A stretch of DNA of 64,000 bases, taken from Owenweeksia sp. GTDB lineage: Bacteria; Bacteroidota; Bacteroidia; Flavobacteriales; Schleiferiaceae. The stretch is from contig JANQPD010000039.1 in assembly GCA_028285465.1 (NCBI GenBank), forward strand, positions 1 through 64,000. The letters run 5' to 3'. The notes below the pieces were generated by a model. It saw only the letters and a program-made list of their open reading frames with translations, had not been told where the DNA came from and ran no database searches. How positions within the stretch are numbered: position 1 is the first letter of the stretch; each line of letters opens with the position of its first letter. Shown one piece after another: positions 43,560 through 59,339 of this stretch. A program made the position numbers and the translations under genes.

Positions 43560-44606
43560 TTGCACAAATCCAGCACATCCTTCAGACCCTTATGGCGTAT
43601 GGCGCTTATCTCATCGCCATTAATTGGTGCCTACAGCGTTACTTCACCCTATATCTTTTTGAGTTCGCTCTCCGAAACCGGCATACAGGATCTACCTGAA
43701 CTGAGAACAGCCCCCCTGCTTCTCGTTATGGGTATGATCAGCATACATGTATTCATCTTGTGGAGCATAAACATTGGCTTACTAAAATTGACAGATTCTG
43801 TTAACGAACGGATTCAACCGGTTGTGCGCATTTTTGCTTCTTATGCCATAGTCCTCATTTTGGTTTCCATGGCCATATCCGCAGGCGGGCCTCTTCAGCG
43901 ACATGACTTTGGTTTAATGCGCTATTACCCTATTATAGGCAGCATTACCAATAACACTTTTGTGCTTTTACTACTCTATTTGGTAGTTCGAAACCAGGAA
44001 AAAGCACAGCTGCAAATAAAAAACGCTGCACTTAAAATGAGTGAGTTGAACAAAAAACTGGAATTATTGCTGCAACAAGTGCAGCCGCATTTTTTGTTCA
44101 ATGCCCTGGCCACTTTAAAAATGCTCATTGTAAAGGACCGTGAAAAAGCCAGTCAATATACCAGTCGCCTTTCCGGTTTTCTGCGCGATTCACTCACCAG
44201 CGATACCAGCATGCTGGCCACGGTAAAAGAAGAGATAGACCGGCTGGAAAATTATATTGCCTTGCAGAAAATGCGCTTCGGTGATGCCTTTGAATACAAA
44301 AGTTCCATTTCAGCAGATTTTTATGAGAAAAAGCTACCCGGCTTTAGCTTACAGGCATTAGCCGAAAATGCCTTAAAGCACAATAACTTCTCAGAAGATG
44401 AACCGCTTTTGCTGGACTATGAAGAAAAGGATGGACTCCTTATTTGCAGCAATAGCTTTACACCTACCCACGAAAAAACACATAATACAGGCCTGGGCTT
44501 ATCCAATCTGAAAGAGCGTTTCACTTTGTTGGGCGGCAAGCCTCCAACTATCCATAAAAATTTGAAAGACAAGCGTTTCAGCGTAATTCTTACTCCTTTA
44601 AGCTAA
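43560..44606 (+). CDS. LytS-like sensor histidine kinase (system A)
   Basis: 348 residues from TTG 43560; ATG 43599 is the alternative, but FRPLWRMALIS resembles the N-terminus of related kinases. Four transmembrane helices (to about 145), a short coiled coil, the His_kinase box VQPHFLFNALATLK (His phosphorylation site), and a GHKL-type ATPase part (ALAENALKHN, GLGLSNLKERF). It should phosphorylate the LytTR regulator encoded 1 bp later. Confidence 0.88.
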   Translation: MHKSSTSFRPLWRMALISSPLIGAYSVTSPYIFLSSLSETGIQDLPELRTAPLLLVMGMISIHVFILWSINIGLLKLTDSVNERIQPVVRIFASYAIVLILVSMAISAGGPLQRHDFGLMRYYPIIGSITNNTFVLLLLYLVVRNQEKAQLQIKNAALKMSELNKKLELLLQQVQPHFLFNALATLKMLIVKDREKASQYTSRLSGFLRDSLTSDTSMLATVKEEIDRLENYIALQKMRFGDAFEYKSSISADFYEKKLPGFSLQALAENALKHNNFSEDEPLLLDYEEKDGLLICSNSFTPTHEKTHNTGLGLSNLKERFTLLGGKPPTIHKNLKDKRFSVILTPLS

Positions 44607-44607
44607 T

Positions 44608-45375
44608 ATGGATATTGCGATTATAGAAGATGAGCCTTTAATGCTGGAAGCACTGGAAGATGCTTTGCAGGCACTGGACAACAGTATGCGGGTTGTAGCT
44701 CGTTTAAACAGCGTAAAGCAGGCGCTGAACTTCTTTGAAAAAAAGCCTGCAGTAGATCTTATTTTCTCTGACATCAAACTAGGTGATGGCAATAGCTTCA
44801 ACATATTTGAAGTATACAAGCCAAGCGCTCCGGTGGTTTTTTGCACCGCTTTTGATTCTTATGCCCTGGAGGCGTTCAAAGCCAACGGCCTGCATTACAT
44901 CCTCAAACCTTATGAAACAGAAGATATCCGGGTCGCCCTGAACAAGTATAAAAGCTTTACCGGAAAACGGGAAATACCGGGGGTAGACTGGAAAGAAATG
45001 TTTGAAACACTTTACCGGCGTGTTAATAAAAACCCTGACCAACAAAGGCTTTTGGTGCATCAGGGCGAACAGATTATCCCTTTGACCGTCTCAGATATTG
45101 CGTTGGTATCTTCCGGTCAGGGTATCGGCTATGTACATACCTTTTCCGAAAAGCGCTATCAAAGTGACCATACATTGGATAAACTGGGCAAAATCCTGGG
45201 AGCTTCTTTTTATCGCTTAAACCGACAGCACCTGATTAACCGTACAGCTATTGAAAAAGTGAGCCAATACTTTGCCCGCAAGTTAAAAGTCCAAGCCAAT
45301 ATCAATTATCCCGAAGCACTGATCGTAAGCAAAGCCAATGCTTCTTCCTTTTTGAAGTGGCTTGAAGAAGGCTAG
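44608..45375 (+). CDS. LytTR response regulator (system A)
   Basis: 255 residues: receiver domain (IIEDEP at 5-10, phospho-acceptor Asp in FSDIKLGD, Lys in YILKPYE) and C-terminal LytTR DNA-binding domain (LALVSSGQGIGYVHTF-like start, FYRLNRQHLINR). LytTR domains bind direct repeats with a spacing of about two helical turns, and such a repeat (45384-45415) begins 9 bp after this gene, in front of the TonB receptor. Confidence 0.93.
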   Translation: MDIAIIEDEPLMLEALEDALQALDNSMRVVARLNSVKQALNFFEKKPAVDLIFSDIKLGDGNSFNIFEVYKPSAPVVFCTAFDSYALEAFKANGLHYILKPYETEDIRVALNKYKSFTGKREIPGVDWKEMFETLYRRVNKNPDQQRLLVHQGEQIIPLTVSDIALVSSGQGIGYVHTFSEKRYQSDHTLDKLGKILGASFYRLNRQHLINRTAIEKVSQYFARKLKVQANINYPEALIVSKANASSFLKWLEEG

Positions 45376-45383
45376 GCAAATCC

Positions 45384-45415
45384 TGCCCGCTTCAACCGCT
45401 TAGTTGCCCGCTTCA
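45384..45415 (+). promoter_or_regulatory. LytTR-type direct repeat, system A
   Basis: TGCCCGCTTCA at 45384-45394 and again, identical in 11 of 11 bases, at 45405-45415; period exactly 21 bp. The second copy starts 45 bp upstream of the -7-like CACATTTG at 45450. Confidence 0.6.
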
Positions 45416-45449
45416 CACAAATAAAAACCGGAACCAAGACCTCGAAAAG

Positions 45450-45457
45450 CACATTTG
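45450..45457 (+). promoter_or_regulatory. weak -7 element of the system A receptor
   Basis: CACATTTG: keeps the TTTG of TAnnTTTG but has CA for TA, and there is no -33 TTG. This fits an activator-dependent promoter. Confidence 0.4.
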
Positions 45458-45480
45458 TCGCTGAAATTTAACTCAGTTAC

Positions 45481-47799
45481 GTGCAAAAGATCATCCTTTT
45501 CATACTTCTCTGCTATAGCTTTAAGGCAGCAGCACAGGAGCGATTTACCATAAGCGGGTACACCAAAGATGCAACAAACGGGGAGGATATTCCCTTTGTG
45601 AACATCACTATAGAAGAATTACCGGGTATTGGAACTATGTCTAATGCATATGGCTTCTATTCGCTTTCCGTACCTGAAGGCAGCTACACCATTGTATATC
45701 AATTTATTGGCTACGAAACGATTAGAAAAGAGCTGGCCCTGGCAACGGATCAAAAGTTAAACATAGAGCTAAACGAAGCTTCGCAAACGCTGGAAGAAGT
45801 GGTGGTTACTGCGGAGCGCGAAGATCAGAATGTAACGCGTATCGAAAGCGGCATCACTCAAATCGATATGAAAGACATGAAAGCCATTCCGGCTTTTGGC
45901 GGTGAACCGGATGTGATGCGCGTAGTGCAAATGACCCCGGGGGTTAAAACAGCCGGTGAAGGAAGCGGAGGTTTTTACGTAAGAGGTGGTGGCCTGGATC
46001 AAAATCTGATCTTGCTGGACGAAGCCCCCGTTTACAACCCTTCCCACTTGTTCGGCTTTTTTTCCGTTTTTAATGGGGACGCCCTGAAGAGCACCACCGT
46101 TTACAAAGGGGGGATGTTACCCGAGTACGGAGGCCGTACGGCTTCTGTACTGGATATTCGCATGAAGGACGGGAACAGCAAAGACTTTGGTGTAAGCGGG
46201 GGATTAGGCCTTATTGCTTCCCGGCTAACGGTTGAGGGACCTATTGTAAAGGAAAAAGGATCCTTTATGTTAAGCGGCAGGCGCACCTATGCCGATCTCT
46301 TTCTTCCCCTCGCCGGAGATGAAGCCCTGGACGGTTCTAACCTCTATTTCTACGACCTCAACCTAAAGGCAAATTACCAGATCAGTGAAAAAGACCGCAT
46401 TTACATCTCGGGGTATTTTGGGCGGGACGAACTGGGTTTCGATGATGTTTTCGGCCTGGATTGGGGCAATACTACCGGAACGTTGCGTTGGAACCATCTT
46501 TTCTCGAACCGCTTGTTTTCCAACACTTCGCTTATTTACAGCGACTATGATTATCAAACCTCCTTTGGCCAGGGGGATGAGTTCATCGGACTTCAATCTG
46601 TGGTAAAAGACATTAATCTCAAACAGGATTTCTCCTTCTACCTCAATGAAAAGAACACCATGAAATTTGGGTTCAATATAATCAACCACACCATTGAACC
46701 GGGCAATATCGAAGCAGGTGAAGACGCGGGCCTCAACACACAAGATGCACAGGCGAAATATGGCATTGAGGGTGCCCTTTACTGGCAAAATGAGCAAAAG
46801 ATAAACAACAGGCTAAGCCTGGGCTACGGCCTTCGCTATTCCCTCTTCCAGCAATTAGGTGAAGGGCAAGCTTATACCTTTAATGACAAGGGAGACTTGC
46901 TGAATACTACTACTTATGATAGCTGGGAACCGATTCAGTATTATGGTGGCCTGGAGCCACGCCTCGCTGTTAATTATCTCCTGGATGAGCGCAGTTCACT
47001 CAAATTCGGGTATAACCGCAACTATCAATACATACACCTTCTTTCCAACTCCACAGCCTCTACCCCGGTTGACACCTGGATCATGAGCAGCAACAATGTA
47101 AAACCGCAGATAGCCGATCAGGTCTCCCTGGGCTACTTCAAAAACTTCAGCGACAATATGTATGAAACTTCGGCCGAGGTCTACTACAAAGACATGCAGA
47201 ACACCATCGACTATCGTACCGGGGCCAATACCTTTTTAAACGAGCTGCTGGAAGGCGACCTGGTGTACGGAGATGGCGAAGCTTATGGCCTGGAGTTGTT
47301 TGTAAAAAAGAAAAAAGGCCGCCTTACCGGATGGATTGGATATACCTTATCCCGCACTACGCGACAGTTTGATGAGATCAACAACGGGGAACCTTTTTCG
47401 GCCCGCCAGGACCGCACACACGACCTATCTATCGTGGCCATGTACAAGCTCACCGATAAAACAACGATTTCCGGGAACTTCGTTTACTATACAGGCGATG
47501 CCGTTACCTTCCCTTCCGGTCAGTACAATGTGAACGGAACTATTGTGCCTTACTATACCGAGCGCAACGGTTATCGCATGCCTGACTACCACCGTTTAGA
47601 CCTTGCCCTGACCATTCAGGGTAAAAAAACCAAGCGCTTTGAAAGCAGTTGGAACTTCAGCCTATACAATGTGTATGGGCGTGAAAATGCCTTCTCCATC
47701 AATTTCCAACCCAGTGAAGATGACCCCACCCAAACGGAAGCCGTGCAACTTTCGCTCTTCAAATGGGTACCCTCCGTTACGTATAATTTTAGTTTCTAA
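45481..47799 (+). CDS. TonB-dependent receptor with CarboxypepD plug (system A)
   Basis: 772 residues from GTG 45481. Signal peptide (KAAAQ), CarboxypepD regulatory-like domain (YTKDATNGEDIPFVNITIEE, YETIRKELAL), plug (VMRVVQMTPGVKTAGEGSGG, YVRGGGLDQNLILLDEAPVYNPSHLFGFFS, cited in parts), barrel ending FKWVPSVTYNFSF. This subtype is regularly followed by a DUF4249 lipoprotein, as here (1-bp overlap). The substrate is unknown. Confidence 0.88.
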   Translation: MQKIILFILLCYSFKAAAQERFTISGYTKDATNGEDIPFVNITIEELPGIGTMSNAYGFYSLSVPEGSYTIVYQFIGYETIRKELALATDQKLNIELNEASQTLEEVVVTAEREDQNVTRIESGITQIDMKDMKAIPAFGGEPDVMRVVQMTPGVKTAGEGSGGFYVRGGGLDQNLILLDEAPVYNPSHLFGFFSVFNGDALKSTTVYKGGMLPEYGGRTASVLDIRMKDGNSKDFGVSGGLGLIASRLTVEGPIVKEKGSFMLSGRRTYADLFLPLAGDEALDGSNLYFYDLNLKANYQISEKDRIYISGYFGRDELGFDDVFGLDWGNTTGTLRWNHLFSNRLFSNTSLIYSDYDYQTSFGQGDEFIGLQSVVKDINLKQDFSFYLNEKNTMKFGFNIINHTIEPGNIEAGEDAGLNTQDAQAKYGIEGALYWQNEQKINNRLSLGYGLRYSLFQQLGEGQAYTFNDKGDLLNTTTYDSWEPIQYYGGLEPRLAVNYLLDERSSLKFGYNRNYQYIHLLSNSTASTPVDTWIMSSNNVKPQIADQVSLGYFKNFSDNMYETSAEVYYKDMQNTIDYRTGANTFLNELLEGDLVYGDGEAYGLELFVKKKKGRLTGWIGYTLSRTTRQFDEINNGEPFSARQDRTHDLSIVAMYKLTDKTTISGNFVYYTGDAVTFPSGQYNVNGTIVPYYTERNGYRMPDYHRLDLALTIQGKKTKRFESSWNFSLYNVYGRENAFSINFQPSEDDPTQTEAVQLSLFKWVPSVTYNFSF

Positions 47800-48611
47800 T
47801 GTGTAAAACATCACTATTTTACCTCATCCTTTTTGGTCTTTTTTTGAGCTTAACTGCCTGTGAAAAGGTCATAGAAATTGACCTGGAAGATGCCTCGCCC
47901 GAATGGGTGGTGGAAGCGAACCTTGCCGAAGGCAAAAACTGGTTTGAAGTGCGCATTTCGCAAACCACCTCTTATTTTTCCAATGAAACGCCTCCGGCAA
48001 AAGAAGGTGCCCGTGTTTTACTAAGCGATGATAAAGGCAATACCTACCCGCTTACGGAATTGGGCAATGGCCTGTACGGGGATACCATCACGGCAGAGGT
48101 CAATACGCTCTATACGCTTACCGCTGAAATTGATGAAAATACCTATACTGCCCAGTCTTTTTTAAAACCTTCCGTACCGGTGCTTTCCCTGGAAGCTGAA
48201 TTTCAAAATGCTTTTGGGCCTCGTGCGGATGGCTACATCGCCACTTTTACCTACCAGGATCCGCCAAATGAAGCAAACTATTACCGTGCCGTTTACTTTA
48301 TTGACGGTGAAAAGCAAACCGGTGGTGAGGCTTTAATTATACTCAATGATTTACTCAACGATGGCAATGTGCCCAGGGTAAGTCTTGTGCAAGAGGTATT
48401 AGAAGAAGGACAGGAATTAAGGGTAGCGTTATGGCATATTGATGAGGCATCTTACAACTATTTTACTTCGTTAGGCGACATCATCGGGGCCGGAAGAGGC
48501 CCCAACCAAGGTTCTGCAGCACCCGGTAATCCAAACTCCAATTGGTCAGGCGGTATTTTGGGATATTTCACCGCCTATTCGGCTAGCCAGGAACAAATTA
48601 CGGTTGAGTAA
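47799..48611 (+). CDS. DUF4249 lipoprotein (receptor partner)
   Basis: 270 residues, lipobox LSLTAC (Cys21), CEKVIEIDLEDASPEWVVEA typical of DUF4249. A surface-exposed or periplasmic beta-sandwich lipoprotein linked to TonB receptors in the way SusD-like proteins are; substrate capture is an inference. It overlaps the receptor stop by one base and the next gene by 8 bp. Confidence 0.85.
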   Translation: MCKTSLFYLILFGLFLSLTACEKVIEIDLEDASPEWVVEANLAEGKNWFEVRISQTTSYFSNETPPAKEGARVLLSDDKGNTYPLTELGNGLYGDTITAEVNTLYTLTAEIDENTYTAQSFLKPSVPVLSLEAEFQNAFGPRADGYIATFTYQDPPNEANYYRAVYFIDGEKQTGGEALIILNDLLNDGNVPRVSLVQEVLEEGQELRVALWHIDEASYNYFTSLGDIIGAGRGPNQGSAAPGNPNSNWSGGILGYFTAYSASQEQITVE

Positions 48612-49848
48612 GGTGTTCCGGAACTTTTGTTTAGGTATACTACTCAGCTATAGTGGGTTGTTGACATGTTATGGGCAAAATTTTCACAAGTATGAAGCTA
48701 TAGCACATCCCGATCATGTGCTTTTTGTGGTAAGCGAACTGCCCGACACCCTGCTCTGCAGCTGGATCAAAGATGCTGAAGATAAGCTTCAACAGGAGCA
48801 TTGGCAGCTTAACGTATTTCACGCAGCAGGTAAAAATCCGGTTGAGGTCAAAGAGTACCTCAACGCTAAATTCAACAACCCGGTTCAGTCGAATCTAACA
48901 CATTCCTACCTGGTGTTTATCGGGAGTAGAAACCTTATTGAAGCACAGAAGGACCTCTATAAAACACCCTTGTTTGTGCGCACAGCTGAGCTTTACACCG
49001 ATCAAAAGCCTGGAGGTTGCACAAATTGTTACTCCTGGGGCGAACAGCCGCTTAAGCCTTTACTTGAGGCTTTTGCCGGGAATTTCCTGTGGGAAATTGA
49101 CCTGGCTGAAGCAAGAAAAGCTGCATTGGAGTCGAACAAAACAAAAGGGGAAGAACGGGCTATAGGCTTTTTTATAAACCAATCCTTTAATCATGGCCAG
49201 CATACCGGTTATATACCACCCAATATGACCAGCTACGGCCTGCGCTTTGGAAAGCACTTCAGGCCGGAATGGCGGTGGAATGTTGAAGCCGAATTCGGTT
49301 ATTCTATGCCCGATATAGAGTCGGTTTTCCAACAACAAATCCAGAGCCAGGTCGATGTCAGTGCCCTTCAATCCGGAATTAATCAAGACATTGAGATCAA
49401 CGCTAGCTTACAGGGATATTTCTACGGGGCAATTGGCGGTAATGTTCAATATGTCTTTTACAAACCAGGGCGCTCCTGGTCGCCTTATGTGGCCATGGGT
49501 TTTTCATTAATGGGGCAACTGGGTTTTGAAAACCAGATCGATACTACGATCACCGTTGACGCTTCTACTTTTCCCGGTAGTGGTGGTGGATTAGGTGGTC
49601 AGGCTCCTGATAGAAGTGCCTTATCAGGCAGCAGCCCCTCCCCCGTATTTGCCAGCCGGATGCCTCTTAGTGCGGGTTGGCAAGTTTATTTCAACGAAAG
49701 ACTTTCACTGGACATATCGCTGAACTACACTTTTGATATGGCGCGCTTACAAGGCGCTGTCTCTAACGTAAATGCCATCCAGCTAAGATTTGGCTTAGCC
49801 TACCATTTCTGGCCTAAGCGCAAAAAATTTTACCGCTACCTACGCTAG
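48604..49848 (+). CDS. hypothetical two-part protein: alpha/beta N-terminus plus outer-membrane barrel
   Basis: 414 residues from TTG 48604 (GTG 48613 possible). Signal peptide ending LTCYG. Residues to about 180 are mixed alpha/beta (HPDHVLFVVSELPDTLLCSW, YLVFIGSRNLIEAQ) with a GGCTNC cysteine pair; from about 190 (IGFFINQSFNHGQHTGYIPP) to the end it reads as a beta-barrel (RFGLAYHFWPKRKK). I do not recognise the first domain. Third gene of the receptor operon, so likely part of the same system. Confidence 0.6.
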   Translation: MSKVFRNFCLGILLSYSGLLTCYGQNFHKYEAIAHPDHVLFVVSELPDTLLCSWIKDAEDKLQQEHWQLNVFHAAGKNPVEVKEYLNAKFNNPVQSNLTHSYLVFIGSRNLIEAQKDLYKTPLFVRTAELYTDQKPGGCTNCYSWGEQPLKPLLEAFAGNFLWEIDLAEARKAALESNKTKGEERAIGFFINQSFNHGQHTGYIPPNMTSYGLRFGKHFRPEWRWNVEAEFGYSMPDIESVFQQQIQSQVDVSALQSGINQDIEINASLQGYFYGAIGGNVQYVFYKPGRSWSPYVAMGFSLMGQLGFENQIDTTITVDASTFPGSGGGLGGQAPDRSALSGSSPSPVFASRMPLSAGWQVYFNERLSLDISLNYTFDMARLQGAVSNVNAIQLRFGLAYHFWPKRKKFYRYLR

Positions 49849-50382: not shown

Positions 50383-50499
50383 TTTCCCGCTCTTGTTTCC
50401 ATCGGTGTTTCTTCTCTCCTTCGGTAAACGTTTCCGGGAAAGCTGGGTATATTCCTTTCCGAAAATGACTTGTTGCCCACCCCCTTCTTCAGTCTTTAC

Positions 50500-52962: not shown

Positions 52963-53310
52963 ATGTATGCCAGCTACACACACTTCAGATGTAAATGGTG
53001 GGCCATACCCCTCTTTCAATACCACGCCATACGTGCTTATGGACAGGCCAATAGAAGCATTGGGCTACAGAGTATACAAGCCTGGACAAAAGGTATACGC
53101 AATTACTGTACTTTAACGGTTTGGGACAGCAAGCAGGACATGCTCCACTACATTGGAAAAGGGGCGCACCTGCGTGCTATGCAACGCAGTGACCTCCTGG
53201 GGCAAGGATATACCACCGGTTGGCAAACCGGACTGCGTCCTACAAGAACACAGGCAGAAGCGCAATTGAAAAACAAATTGGTAAAACTCGGGCAGCTAAA
53301 ATGGCTTTAA
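52963..53310 (+). CDS. DUF3291/ABM-like (dimeric alpha-beta barrel) protein
   Basis: 115 residues, no signal peptide. WAIPLFQYHAIRAYGQANRS followed by TLTVWDSKQDMLHYIGKGAHLRAM looks like a ferredoxin-like alpha-beta barrel of the antibiotic-monooxygenase/DUF3291 kind, where the WDS...M.HY.....H pattern is common. Activity unknown. It lies 3 bp after the receptor and overlaps the kinase start by 10 bp, an unusual position for such a protein. Confidence 0.55.
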   Translation: MYASYTHFRCKWWAIPLFQYHAIRAYGQANRSIGLQSIQAWTKGIRNYCTLTVWDSKQDMLHYIGKGAHLRAMQRSDLLGQGYTTGWQTGLRPTRTQAEAQLKNKLVKLGQLKWL

Positions 53311-54374
53311 AGCAGGGGTTTACATTTAGTGTAAGTAGAACCGAATGGCTTATAGTGCTCTGCATTGCGCTCTTTCCACCACTCCTGTTTTACTTTGAAG
53401 ATTTTATTGAACAATCTTACCTTGAAGAATCTCCTTTCTCGTTCAGAGCGTGCAGTATTGCCATTGGCTATTCTTTCGCCGTAACCTTCCTGCTTTATAT
53501 AGGTACCAGCTATATTTTTCAGTGGCTCAGCCATCATTTCCCATGGGGCGTGCACAATAAAAAGCGCCTGTGGCGGGAAATTGTCTTTGTGAGCGTATAT
53601 GCCTCTCTTGTTCAGTTTATCCTGATCACGGTTTTCCATTATTTGAAGGCCGATTTCCTGCTTACCCTCACCCCTATTGTGTACCTATCAAACATCCTTT
53701 TTGGCCTCGCCATTACTTATATTACGCTTGCCATCTTTGAAGGGGTATACCTGTTTAGGCGTTGGCGCGAAAGCCTGCTGCGGGAAGCGCACCTGCGCGA
53801 AAAACATACGAAGACCCAGCTGGCAAACCTGCGGGCACAACTCGATCCTCACTTTATGTTCAATAGCCTTAACGTGCTCTCCGCTCTGATCCGGAAAGAT
53901 CCGGGACAGGCAGAACATTTCGTAGATGATTTTGCCCGGGTATACCGCTATGTGCTGGAGGTAAAAGACGAGATCGTGGTAACCTTAAAGCAGGAACTGG
54001 ATTTTGCCGAGGCCTACCTCAACCTGCAAAAGATCCGTTTTGGGGAAGGCCTGCAGGTTAGTAAAAACATCTGTGCCGAAGACCTGAACAAATACATCTT
54101 ACCCCTGGCTTTACAAGAAGTGCTCAACAACGCGATAAAACACAATGAGCTCTCCATAGAGAAGCCACTATACCTGCATATGGAAAGCAACGGGAGTGCC
54201 TTGCGCGTAACCAATACAGCCCAGTTGAGGAAAGAAAAAAACAACGGAACCGGAACCGGGCTCAGCAACCTGAAAAAGCGTTATGCACTATTGGGCGATG
54301 CAAAACCCGCTTTTAATGTGAACGAAAAACACTACCTGGCGCATCTGCCCCTTATAGAAAACGATGAAGCTTAA
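53301..54374 (+). CDS. LytS-like sensor histidine kinase (system B)
   Basis: 357 residues from ATG 53301. Four transmembrane helices to about 155, then RRWRESLLREAHLREKHTKT coiled coil, the His box LDPHFMFNSLNVLSALI, and GTGTGLSNLKKRYALLG of the ATPase. Start overlaps the preceding stop, end overlaps the regulator by 11 bp. Confidence 0.88.
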   Translation: MALKQGFTFSVSRTEWLIVLCIALFPPLLFYFEDFIEQSYLEESPFSFRACSIAIGYSFAVTFLLYIGTSYIFQWLSHHFPWGVHNKKRLWREIVFVSVYASLVQFILITVFHYLKADFLLTLTPIVYLSNILFGLAITYITLAIFEGVYLFRRWRESLLREAHLREKHTKTQLANLRAQLDPHFMFNSLNVLSALIRKDPGQAEHFVDDFARVYRYVLEVKDEIVVTLKQELDFAEAYLNLQKIRFGEGLQVSKNICAEDLNKYILPLALQEVLNNAIKHNELSIEKPLYLHMESNGSALRVTNTAQLRKEKNNGTGTGLSNLKKRYALLGDAKPAFNVNEKHYLAHLPLIENDEA

Positions 54375-55107
54375 GTACGTTATTTTAGAAGATGAACCCC
54401 TGGCGGCTGATAAGCTGGAGAGCGGCATTCAGGCTTTTCGCCCGCATTGGCAATGTATGGGCGTTATCCAGTCTGTGCGTGAAGCCAAAAAGCGCTTGCC
54501 TGCCCTTGATGCACAACTCCTTTTCCTCGATGTGCACCTGGCCGATGACCTCTCCTTCTCCATCTTTGAAGAATTGCCGCTTTCTACCCCCATCATTTTT
54601 ACTACAGCTTATGACCAGTATGCCCTGCGCGCCTTTAAGCTAAACAGTGTCGACTACTTATTGAAACCTGTAAGTGACAAAGAGTTGCTGAAAGCAGTTG
54701 AAAAATTTGAAGCCAATGCAGTGGTAAACCCGAACCTGCAAAAACTGGCGCAAAGCTACCAACCCGACTACCGCAACCGCTTCTTGGTAAGCACGGGAAA
54801 CCGGATCAAAACCATTTTAGAAAAAGACGTTGCCTATTTCCACGCCAATGGAAAGCACAGCTACCTGGTGAACACGGCAGGGAAAGAATTTCTCTTTAAC
54901 CAGCCATTGTCCAAGCTTATCCGGGAGCTGAACCCGGCCGTTTTTTTCCAGATCAACCGCCAGTACATTCTGGCGCTCAACAGCATTCGGGAAATGATCC
55001 CCTACTCCAAGGGCCGCCTAAAGGTACTTACCCAGCCTCCCACACCCGAAGAAGCCATTGTAAGCGTTGAAAAAAGCCCCAGGTTTAGGCAGTGGGTAGG
55101 GGGATAA
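54364..55107 (+). CDS. LytTR response regulator (system B)
   Basis: 247 residues: receiver domain (ILEDEPLAA, acceptor Asp in LFLDVHLADD, Lys in YLLKPVSD) and LytTR domain (AYFHANGKHSYLV, FFQINRQYILALNSI). The likely binding site is the 21-bp repeat in front of its own operon (50500-50535), which would make a positive loop from receptor to regulator. Confidence 0.93.
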   Translation: MKLKYVILEDEPLAADKLESGIQAFRPHWQCMGVIQSVREAKKRLPALDAQLLFLDVHLADDLSFSIFEELPLSTPIIFTTAYDQYALRAFKLNSVDYLLKPVSDKELLKAVEKFEANAVVNPNLQKLAQSYQPDYRNRFLVSTGNRIKTILEKDVAYFHANGKHSYLVNTAGKEFLFNQPLSKLIRELNPAVFFQINRQYILALNSIREMIPYSKGRLKVLTQPPTPEEAIVSVEKSPRFRQWVGG

Positions 55108-57535: not shown

Positions 57536-58270
57536 TTATAAGTTAAGCACCTGTTTCAGAAGCTGGTAGCCATTCCTGCTTATGGGAACCGCACTACCGT
57601 CTCTCAGCTGCGCAAGATGGTTGTTTTTTCCATAAGGATCAATGCGTATGATTTGCGAAACATTGACCAGGTGCGTACGGTGGATGCGGGCAAAAACGGA
57701 GTCTGGTAAACTACTTTCGAAATGATGCAGTGTGCGCTTTTGCATAAAGTTGCCCTGCGTACTTATGATCTTCACATAGTCCCCGTCGGCCTCCAGCCGG
57801 ATGATCTCCGCAGTGGGGATGAGGCGGATCTTTCCCCCGTCCTTTACCACTATCCTGTTCTGATTTCTCAACTCCGGTATAGCCGTAGGGGCATCTAATT
57901 CCTGCTTCTCGCCCTTTTCCCTGCGTGAAAGAAATTTTTCCAGGGCACGGGCAAAACGGTCTTCGGAAAAGGGCTTTAGCAAATAATCGAGGGCATTGGC
58001 TTCAAAAGCCTTTAAGGCAAAAGCATCAAAGGCGGTAGTAAAAATAACGGCAGGGGGGCTTTCCAGCATTTCCAGTAGCTCAAACCCGTTGATCTTGGGC
58101 ATTTGCACATCCAGGAAAATAAGATCGGGCTGTTGCTCGTTGATGGCTTTGAACCCTTCAAACCCGTTCAGGCAACGTCCTATTACGGTGAACTGGGGGT
58201 ACTTTTGCAGATACTCTTCTACCAGGTCGCTCGCCAGCGGTTCATCATCGATCAGTAACGTTCTAATCAT
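57536..58270 (-). CDS. LytTR response regulator (system C)
   Basis: 244 residues: receiver domain (TLLIDDEPLASDLV, acceptor Asp in FLDVQMPKING, Lys in YLLKPFSED) and LytTR domain (IIRLEADGDYVKII, VFARIHRTHLVNVSQI). Start overlaps the kinase end by 8 bp. The repeat at 60119-60149 is the probable site of autoregulation. Confidence 0.93.
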   Translation of the reverse strand: MIRTLLIDDEPLASDLVEEYLQKYPQFTVIGRCLNGFEGFKAINEQQPDLIFLDVQMPKINGFELLEMLESPPAVIFTTAFDAFALKAFEANALDYLLKPFSEDRFARALEKFLSRREKGEKQELDAPTAIPELRNQNRIVVKDGGKIRLIPTAEIIRLEADGDYVKIISTQGNFMQKRTLHHFESSLPDSVFARIHRTHLVNVSQIIRIDPYGKNNHLAQLRDGSAVPISRNGYQLLKQVLNL

Positions 58271-59339
58271 GGGCCATAGGAATTGAAATGCGTACTTCGA
58301 ATAGGTCTTTTGTTTGACTGGTCTGCAGCAAGCCGGTTTGCCCGTAGAGCAGCTGCAGGCGCCTTCGTACGGATTTTAAACCAAATCCGGTGCCTTCGCT
58401 TTCAGCCACATCTTCATCCACGGGGTTTTGAAGCGCAAGCAAAAGCTTTCCGCCTTCTATTTTACTTTCCAGGGAAATGACGGCTTTATCCAGGGTGCCA
58501 TAAAGCCCAAATTTAATCGCATTTTCCAACAAAGGCTGTAGTATTAAGGGAGGTAATTTATAGGATAAGTGTGCTTCCGGTATCTCTATTTTTACCGAAA
58601 GGCGGTTGCCAAAACGCACTTGCTCAATTTCCAGGTACAGGCCCAGGTATTCCAGCTCTTCTCCCAGGCTTATCAGTTTTTGGTCTTCCCGTTTCAACGT
58701 GCCCCTCAGGAAAGAGGATAGTTGCTGTACCATATTGCGCGCCTGCATGGGCTTACTCCCGATCAGGGCGTTGATCGAATTCAGGCTGTTGAATAGAAAG
58801 TGAGGTTGCAATTGTTGGCGGAGCTTGAAAAGTTCTGCTTCTTTAGCCAGTTTATCCGTTTCATCGCGCCTGCGCTGGATGTCTTCCCTTTCGCCCAGGC
58901 GATACCAGATGAGGCTAAATAAAAAAGTCCCCGTCAAAACAAGATAACTTACCGAAAGGCGGTAAAAAGCCGATCTTTCAAGAAAAGCGCCATACGCTTC
59001 ACTTTCAATGCTGCTGAGCAATACCCACTGCGTGCTTTGCTGCCATACATAGGCCAGCACCAGGGGCACCAGCAATACCATAAAGAATTGCCCTTTTCCG
59101 GGGTGGTAAAAAGAAAGGGTGTTTGTAATCATGAAAACCGTGAAGCCCAAACTTATCCAGGTAAGCAGGGCATCGCCCGCGGCCGGCACAGCCGGTAACT
59201 GATACTGTACATACACCCCTAAAAAATGAACCCCTGCCAGTATCAGGATACTGAGCAGGAGATACCATTTATTGTTGTTGTAAAGTAAGGGGTTAATGAC
59301 CACCTGTGGTGCGTTTGCTTCCAAAGGTAGCGTGAGCAT
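58263..59339 (-). CDS. LytS-like sensor histidine kinase (system C)
   Basis: 358 residues: four transmembrane helices (about 26-165), coiled coil with RRDETDKLAKEAELFKLRQQ, the His box LQPHFLFNSLNSINALIG, and ATPase part (LLENAIKFGLYG, GTGFGLKSVRRRLQLLYG). ATG 59339 overlaps the stop of the LiaF-like gene (TAATG), so sensor and LiaF-like protein are made together; LiaF proteins inhibit a cognate kinase in Firmicutes. Confidence 0.88.
   Translation of the reverse strand: MLTLPLEANAPQVVINPLLYNNNKWYLLLSILILAGVHFLGVYVQYQLPAVPAAGDALLTWISLGFTVFMITNTLSFYHPGKGQFFMVLLVPLVLAYVWQQSTQWVLLSSIESEAYGAFLERSAFYRLSVSYLVLTGTFLFSLIWYRLGEREDIQRRRDETDKLAKEAELFKLRQQLQPHFLFNSLNSINALIGSKPMQARNMVQQLSSFLRGTLKREDQKLISLGEELEYLGLYLEIEQVRFGNRLSVKIEIPEAHLSYKLPPLILQPLLENAIKFGLYGTLDKAVISLESKIEGGKLLLALQNPVDEDVAESEGTGFGLKSVRRRLQLLYGQTGLLQTSQTKDLFEVRISIPMAHD

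Follow-up and report, generated by a model that had tools for sequence, protein, structure and literature searches.

Does the LytTR response regulator encoded directly ahead of a TonB-dependent receptor operon in Owenweeksia sp. control that operon, and if so, through which site and in which direction? The question was raised by an initial annotation of the 64-kb stretch of DNA analysed here (the window), in which a perfect 11-bp repeat between the two genes was pointed out as the predicted site of the adjacent regulator.

The receptor locus and its repeat pair

The gene order at the locus is PF06580 kinase, LytTR regulator, repeat box, TonB receptor, DUF4249 protein and beta-barrel-like protein, all on the forward strand. 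HK_A (43560..44606) is a sensor histidine kinase of the LytS/YehU type (PF06580; Pfam His_kinase 6.3e-23) with a hydrophobic N-terminal half, and its sequence was read as containing the motif QPHFLFN and the candidate phospho-acceptor His177. The adjoining gene, 1 base away, encodes RR_A (44608..45375), which combines a receiver with a LytTR DNA-binding domain (Pfam Response_reg 2.8e-14, LytTR 1.2e-11) and whose candidate phospho-acceptor, by inspection, is Asp55 in IFSDIK. After 105 bp, the same strand carries TBDR_A (45481..47799), a TonB-dependent receptor with a GTG start and CarboxypepD_reg-like and Plug domains (PF13715 2e-18, PF07715 3.5e-9). The receptor stop codon is overlapped by the gene of the DUF4249 partner (47799..48611; Pfam DUF4249 1.3e-25), which is overlapped in turn by a gene for an outer-membrane beta-barrel-like protein (48604..49848; Pfam OMP_b-brl 1.3e-5, below the cut-off), possibly the last of the operon. 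Pfam gave no SusD-like lipoprotein beside TBDR_A, and the pair, whose second member is the DUF4249 protein, is thus not of the SusCD type. The locus resembles BT2172/BT2173 of Bacteroides thetaiotaomicron, a conserved operon of TonB transporter and DUF4249 protein that was proposed as a functional unit (PMC11003636), and differs from it in that the passage of PMC11003636 on this pair describes no LytTR control, so that the regulator and box of the window would form an added control layer. The receptor operon is separated from the next receptor gene by the gene of an OmdA/YdeI-like protein (PF13376; 49861-50382), and two further kinase/LytTR-type pairs are present in the window at 53220-55107 and 57536-59339. 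The former pair belongs with a receptor at 50470 (System B), and a scan of that system for a 21-bp-spaced pair with a -7 element gave none.

The box itself consists of two copies of TGCCCGCTTCA on the forward strand, found where the initial annotation had placed them. The distal half-site, conserved in relatives, occupies 45384..45394 (about -78 to -68), and the proximal one, closer to the promoter, 45405..45415 (about -57 to -47); the 11-bp half-sites are separated by 10 bp, or 21 bp from start to start, and their identity extends over exactly 11 bp and no further. The regulator gene does end just before the first copy, its stop codon ending at 45375 with 8 bases intervening. A third CCGCTT core in the spacer (45396-45401) is not kept in the boxes of relatives.

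Operators of this general kind are known, those of AgrA, VirR, ComE and AlgR being individual LytTR direct-repeat pairs; they come from Firmicutes or Gammaproteobacteria and differ from the window box in half-site sequence and in target. LytTR operators are generally pairs of about 9-bp direct repeats with 10-13 bp between them (PMC11347149), and the window box fits this pattern of about 9-11-bp repeats with a 10-13-bp gap, two helical turns apart. YpdB, a LytTR response regulator, binds cooperatively to the operator of yhjX in Escherichia coli, GGCATTTCAT-N11-GGCATTTCAT (PMC4847170). As in the window, the repeats precede the promoter at a spacing of 21 bp and the TTTCA/CTTCA core is similar, whereas the half-site sequence differs and the window has a Bacteroidota -7 promoter (TAnnTTTG) and a TonB receptor operon as its target. 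Direct repeats at two-turn intervals are also found in the LytTR operators of CoxC and RcoM (PMC11347149), but these contain three repeats and serve proteins that are not two-component regulators, CoxC being a repressor.

Under a Markov model of the intergenic region of the window, an 11-bp direct repeat has a probability of about 0.0002 at spacings of 20-23 and of about 0.0055 at any spacing of 11-100. As nine exact repeats of at least 11 bp at spacings of 12-100 occur across the window, the repeat by itself is only moderately surprising. This abundance, together with the location of regulator and receptor on one strand only 105 bp apart, would suit a chance match or neutral tandem duplication devoid of any regulatory role, with the receptor read through from the regulator operon; such an account is hardly credible, since other families have the same box in the same geometry. 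The case for the box is one of relatives, not of repeat statistics.

Recurrence of the box beside related regulators

Homologues of RR_A, mostly of 30-45% identity, were gathered at the levels of family, order, class and phylum. When the first 150 nt downstream of 72 RR_A-related genes were searched for direct repeats matching at 9/10 or better, a spacing of 21 was found in 8 loci (the window included), and each of the remaining spacings between 12 and 40 in 0-3 loci. When 86 further regulator loci, without the window, were scanned with the box motif, 7 reached a score of 19/22 or more at spacing 21; other spacings each produced 0 or 1 such locus, and the reversed motif produced 0. In a gene-blind search of 395 phylum genomes, 12 places matched the degenerate box with 0-1 mismatch, and 8 of the 12 have an RR_A homologue at a distance of 9 bp to 16 kb; many 2-mismatch matches were at the chance level of the controls and were not used alone, only 0-1-mismatch or regulator-linked sites being retained. 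Many of the boxes, which come from other families and orders, have nearly the letters of the window box: TGTCCACTTCA-N10-TGTCCACTTCA in G632, TGTCCACTTTA-N10-TGTCCACTTCA in G306, TTTCCGCTTCA-N10-TGTCCGCTTCA in G1014, TGGCCGCTTCG-N10-TGCCCGTTTCG in G930 and TGTCCGTTTGA-N10-TGTCCGTTACA in G888. These sites stem from related regulators and are not fully independent events. In the flanks examined, L104 and L105, two relatives of RR_A whose recognition loop is similar, had no such box.

The gene neighbourhood is conserved as well. G306 (locus L183), from another family, is fully syntenic, with kinase, regulator, box, receptor (51%) and DUF4249 protein (31%) in succession, and the same order is repeated, box included, in G930, G1014 and G959, again from other families. 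G776 and G919 keep the regulator-receptor order, but the regulator gene is followed by a single good half-site; in both, a weaker box precedes the kinase gene. In G577, where some 13 kb separate the regulator from a receptor-DUF4249 pair, one box precedes that pair and another precedes a series of TolC/HlyD/MacB-type genes whose last members are those of the kinase and regulator. The joining of the box/regulator module to a TolC/HlyD/MacB-type efflux run beside a receptor-DUF4249 pair was observed repeatedly (L181, L182, L235). A clear small regulon is seen in the genus g21 (L176-L179), where each genome has three boxes around the kinase-regulator pair, placed ahead of genes for a DoxX-like protein, an alpha/beta-hydrolase (followed by an OsmC-like protein) and a cupin.

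The Owenweeksia sp. genome contains 27 LytTR matches, and LytTR specificities can be close, from which it might be argued that the box is bound by another of these proteins and not by RR_A. A search of the genome contigs with RR_A returned weak matches only. Binding by another regulator is nevertheless very unlikely, given that boxes of the window sequence track RR_A homologues in many genomes, and given the situation in G977. This genome (L232, 2402-3271) has a receptor of the same clade as that of the window beside a different LytTR regulator (21-27% to the regulators of the window, LytTR confirmed), and a different perfect repeat, GTTTACTGAA, is located between regulator and receptor, again at a spacing of 21 bp. 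From its sequence, G977 looks like a swap of the regulator together with its box, the letters having changed and the spacing having been kept.

Promoter geometry and the predicted mode of action

The -7 element following the repeats, CACATTTG (45450..45457, forward strand), had been described as poor, and it is indeed one mismatch away from TAnnTTTG; it begins 35 nt past the box, and the identical octamer is found in the g21 DoxX promoters. Sixteen boxes, picked by box score or linkage regardless of downstream sequence, were aligned. A TAnnTTTG-like -7 begins exactly 35 or 36 nt past the box in 13 of the 16, while the same pattern at other positions amounts to 7/800; at the boxes of G632, G638 and G930, the -7 is not recognisable at this offset. 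The binomial estimate of about 7e-21 is optimistic, some loci being related (three promoters come from one genus), and the conclusion of a fixed offset is independent of it. With the -7 box positioned at -12 to -5 (PMC9723704), the predicted start of the receptor transcript is near 45462, 19 nt ahead of the GTG codon, and the repeat box would extend from about -78 to -47.

Two further considerations were put aside. The lack of a -33 element had been taken as a sign of an activator-dependent promoter, and a -33 TTG is in fact absent at the window promoter and in 13/16 box promoters, but this is uninformative, since ordinary -7 elements here are without TTG as often: the trinucleotide occurs in the -33 zone of 15/82 (18%) intergenic TAnnTTTG sites and in a control zone of 17/82 (21%). 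An effect of the gene end or of a terminator was likewise rejected, because the distance between box and regulator varies and because boxes also precede non-adjacent or unrelated genes (an efflux operon, cupin, hydrolase, DoxX and the kinase itself), which identifies them as promoter elements and not as by-products of the end of the regulator gene.

It is highly probable, judging from the sequence comparisons, that 45384-45415 is the operator of RR_A, through which phosphorylated RR_A would activate the receptor-DUF4249(-OMP) operon. The earlier prediction of a site for the adjacent regulator ahead of the receptor is strongly supported by the same box beside RR_A homologues in several families, by the fixed -7 in 13/16 boxes and by the synteny of G306. 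In the proposed mechanism, HK_A would respond to a presumed signal by phosphorylating RR_A, and two LytTR domains would then bind next to each other, one per TGCCCGCTTCA half-site, on one DNA face (21 bp, two turns). From this position, at about -78 to -47, RR_A would bring RNA polymerase to the CACATTTG promoter, which follows 35 nt further on, or would stabilise it there, and the receptor-DUF4249(-OMP) operon would be switched on. The promoter is probably activator-dependent, and the system may constitute a one-target local circuit in the Owenweeksia sp. genome. With 3 mismatches allowed, no second copy of the TGCCCGCTTCA pair was found in the 3.84-Mb genome; four other 3-mismatch boxes were dismissed as chance, all of them lying within open reading frames and without a -7.

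RR_A could also act on the same operator with the opposite sign, either repressing the receptor promoter or repressing it when unphosphorylated and activating it when phosphorylated, and a precedent is offered by the LytTR protein CoxC, which represses from three repeats overlapping the -35 box (PMC11347149). The window box, in contrast, leaves the promoter free, its downstream edge being about 47 nt short of the predicted start, and its 35/36-nt offset to the -7 is fixed, as expected for polymerase contact. Activation is, moreover, the usual outcome when a LytTR regulator binds upstream of the -35 region (PMC11347149). For these reasons activation is preferred, and repression is considered unlikely.

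Cassette history and a wider LytTR promoter layout

The initial annotation had further supposed that site and regulator have moved together. Between families this is supported by the receptor tree, in which the window receptor clades with those of G930, G977 and G1014 with 100% support, all of them regulator-linked and from other families. It fails within the family, whose four nearest receptors fall outside that clade; a box had been expected at the same-family receptor orthologues (57-60%, L091-L094), and neither regulator nor box was found there. The clade and the regulator-less orthologues indicate that receptor, regulator and box have a common history that cuts across the species tree, a pattern that would follow either from transfer of the cassette or from repeated loss.

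Other LytTR loci of the set have 21-bp pairs with different letters ahead of a -7. With a -7 required, spacing 21 accounts for 17 pairs matching at 8/11 or better, compared with 0-5 at other spacings, and half-sites such as GCAGTTCAC and GGTTCACC have a TTCA core that is common to the window box and to GGCATTTCAT of YpdB. The regulators were sampled around RR_A, and this wider pattern is not a census. In seven loci (L116, L118, L123, L142, L110, L120 and L127), half-sites that differ in sequence (TTCACC, GCAGTTCAC) are again 21 bp apart and have a -7 at a similar distance, and the regulators of these loci have different recognition loops (NGR, QRK versus ARK/SRK). The pattern suggests a single LytTR promoter layout in the phylum. 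Slightly favoured, on balance, is a broader proposal: a Bacteroidota-wide layout, with half-sites 21 bp apart, TAnnTTTG 35/36 nt further on and letters varying with the regulator, combined with an exchangeable kinase-regulator-box-receptor cassette in which, as in G977, regulators are replaced along with their boxes. If this is true, the wiring of regulators to targets would be predictable from sequence, genome by genome.

A full-text literature search, of incomplete coverage and mostly of titles and abstracts, returned no operator of any Bacteroidota LytTR regulator. LytTR direct-repeat operators are a known kind, and the window box, its promoter geometry and the receptor circuit were not found in the literature searched, which is weak evidence that they are new.

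Bacteroidota carry many LytTR kinase/regulator pairs, and a box at a fixed offset turns such orphan pairs into predictable circuits. Here it would link one sensor kinase to a receptor-DUF4249 system and in some cases also to a MacB/TolC-type efflux operon, and the recurrence of regulator, site and receptor in distant Bacteroidota points to a regulatory circuit that may be read from sequence.
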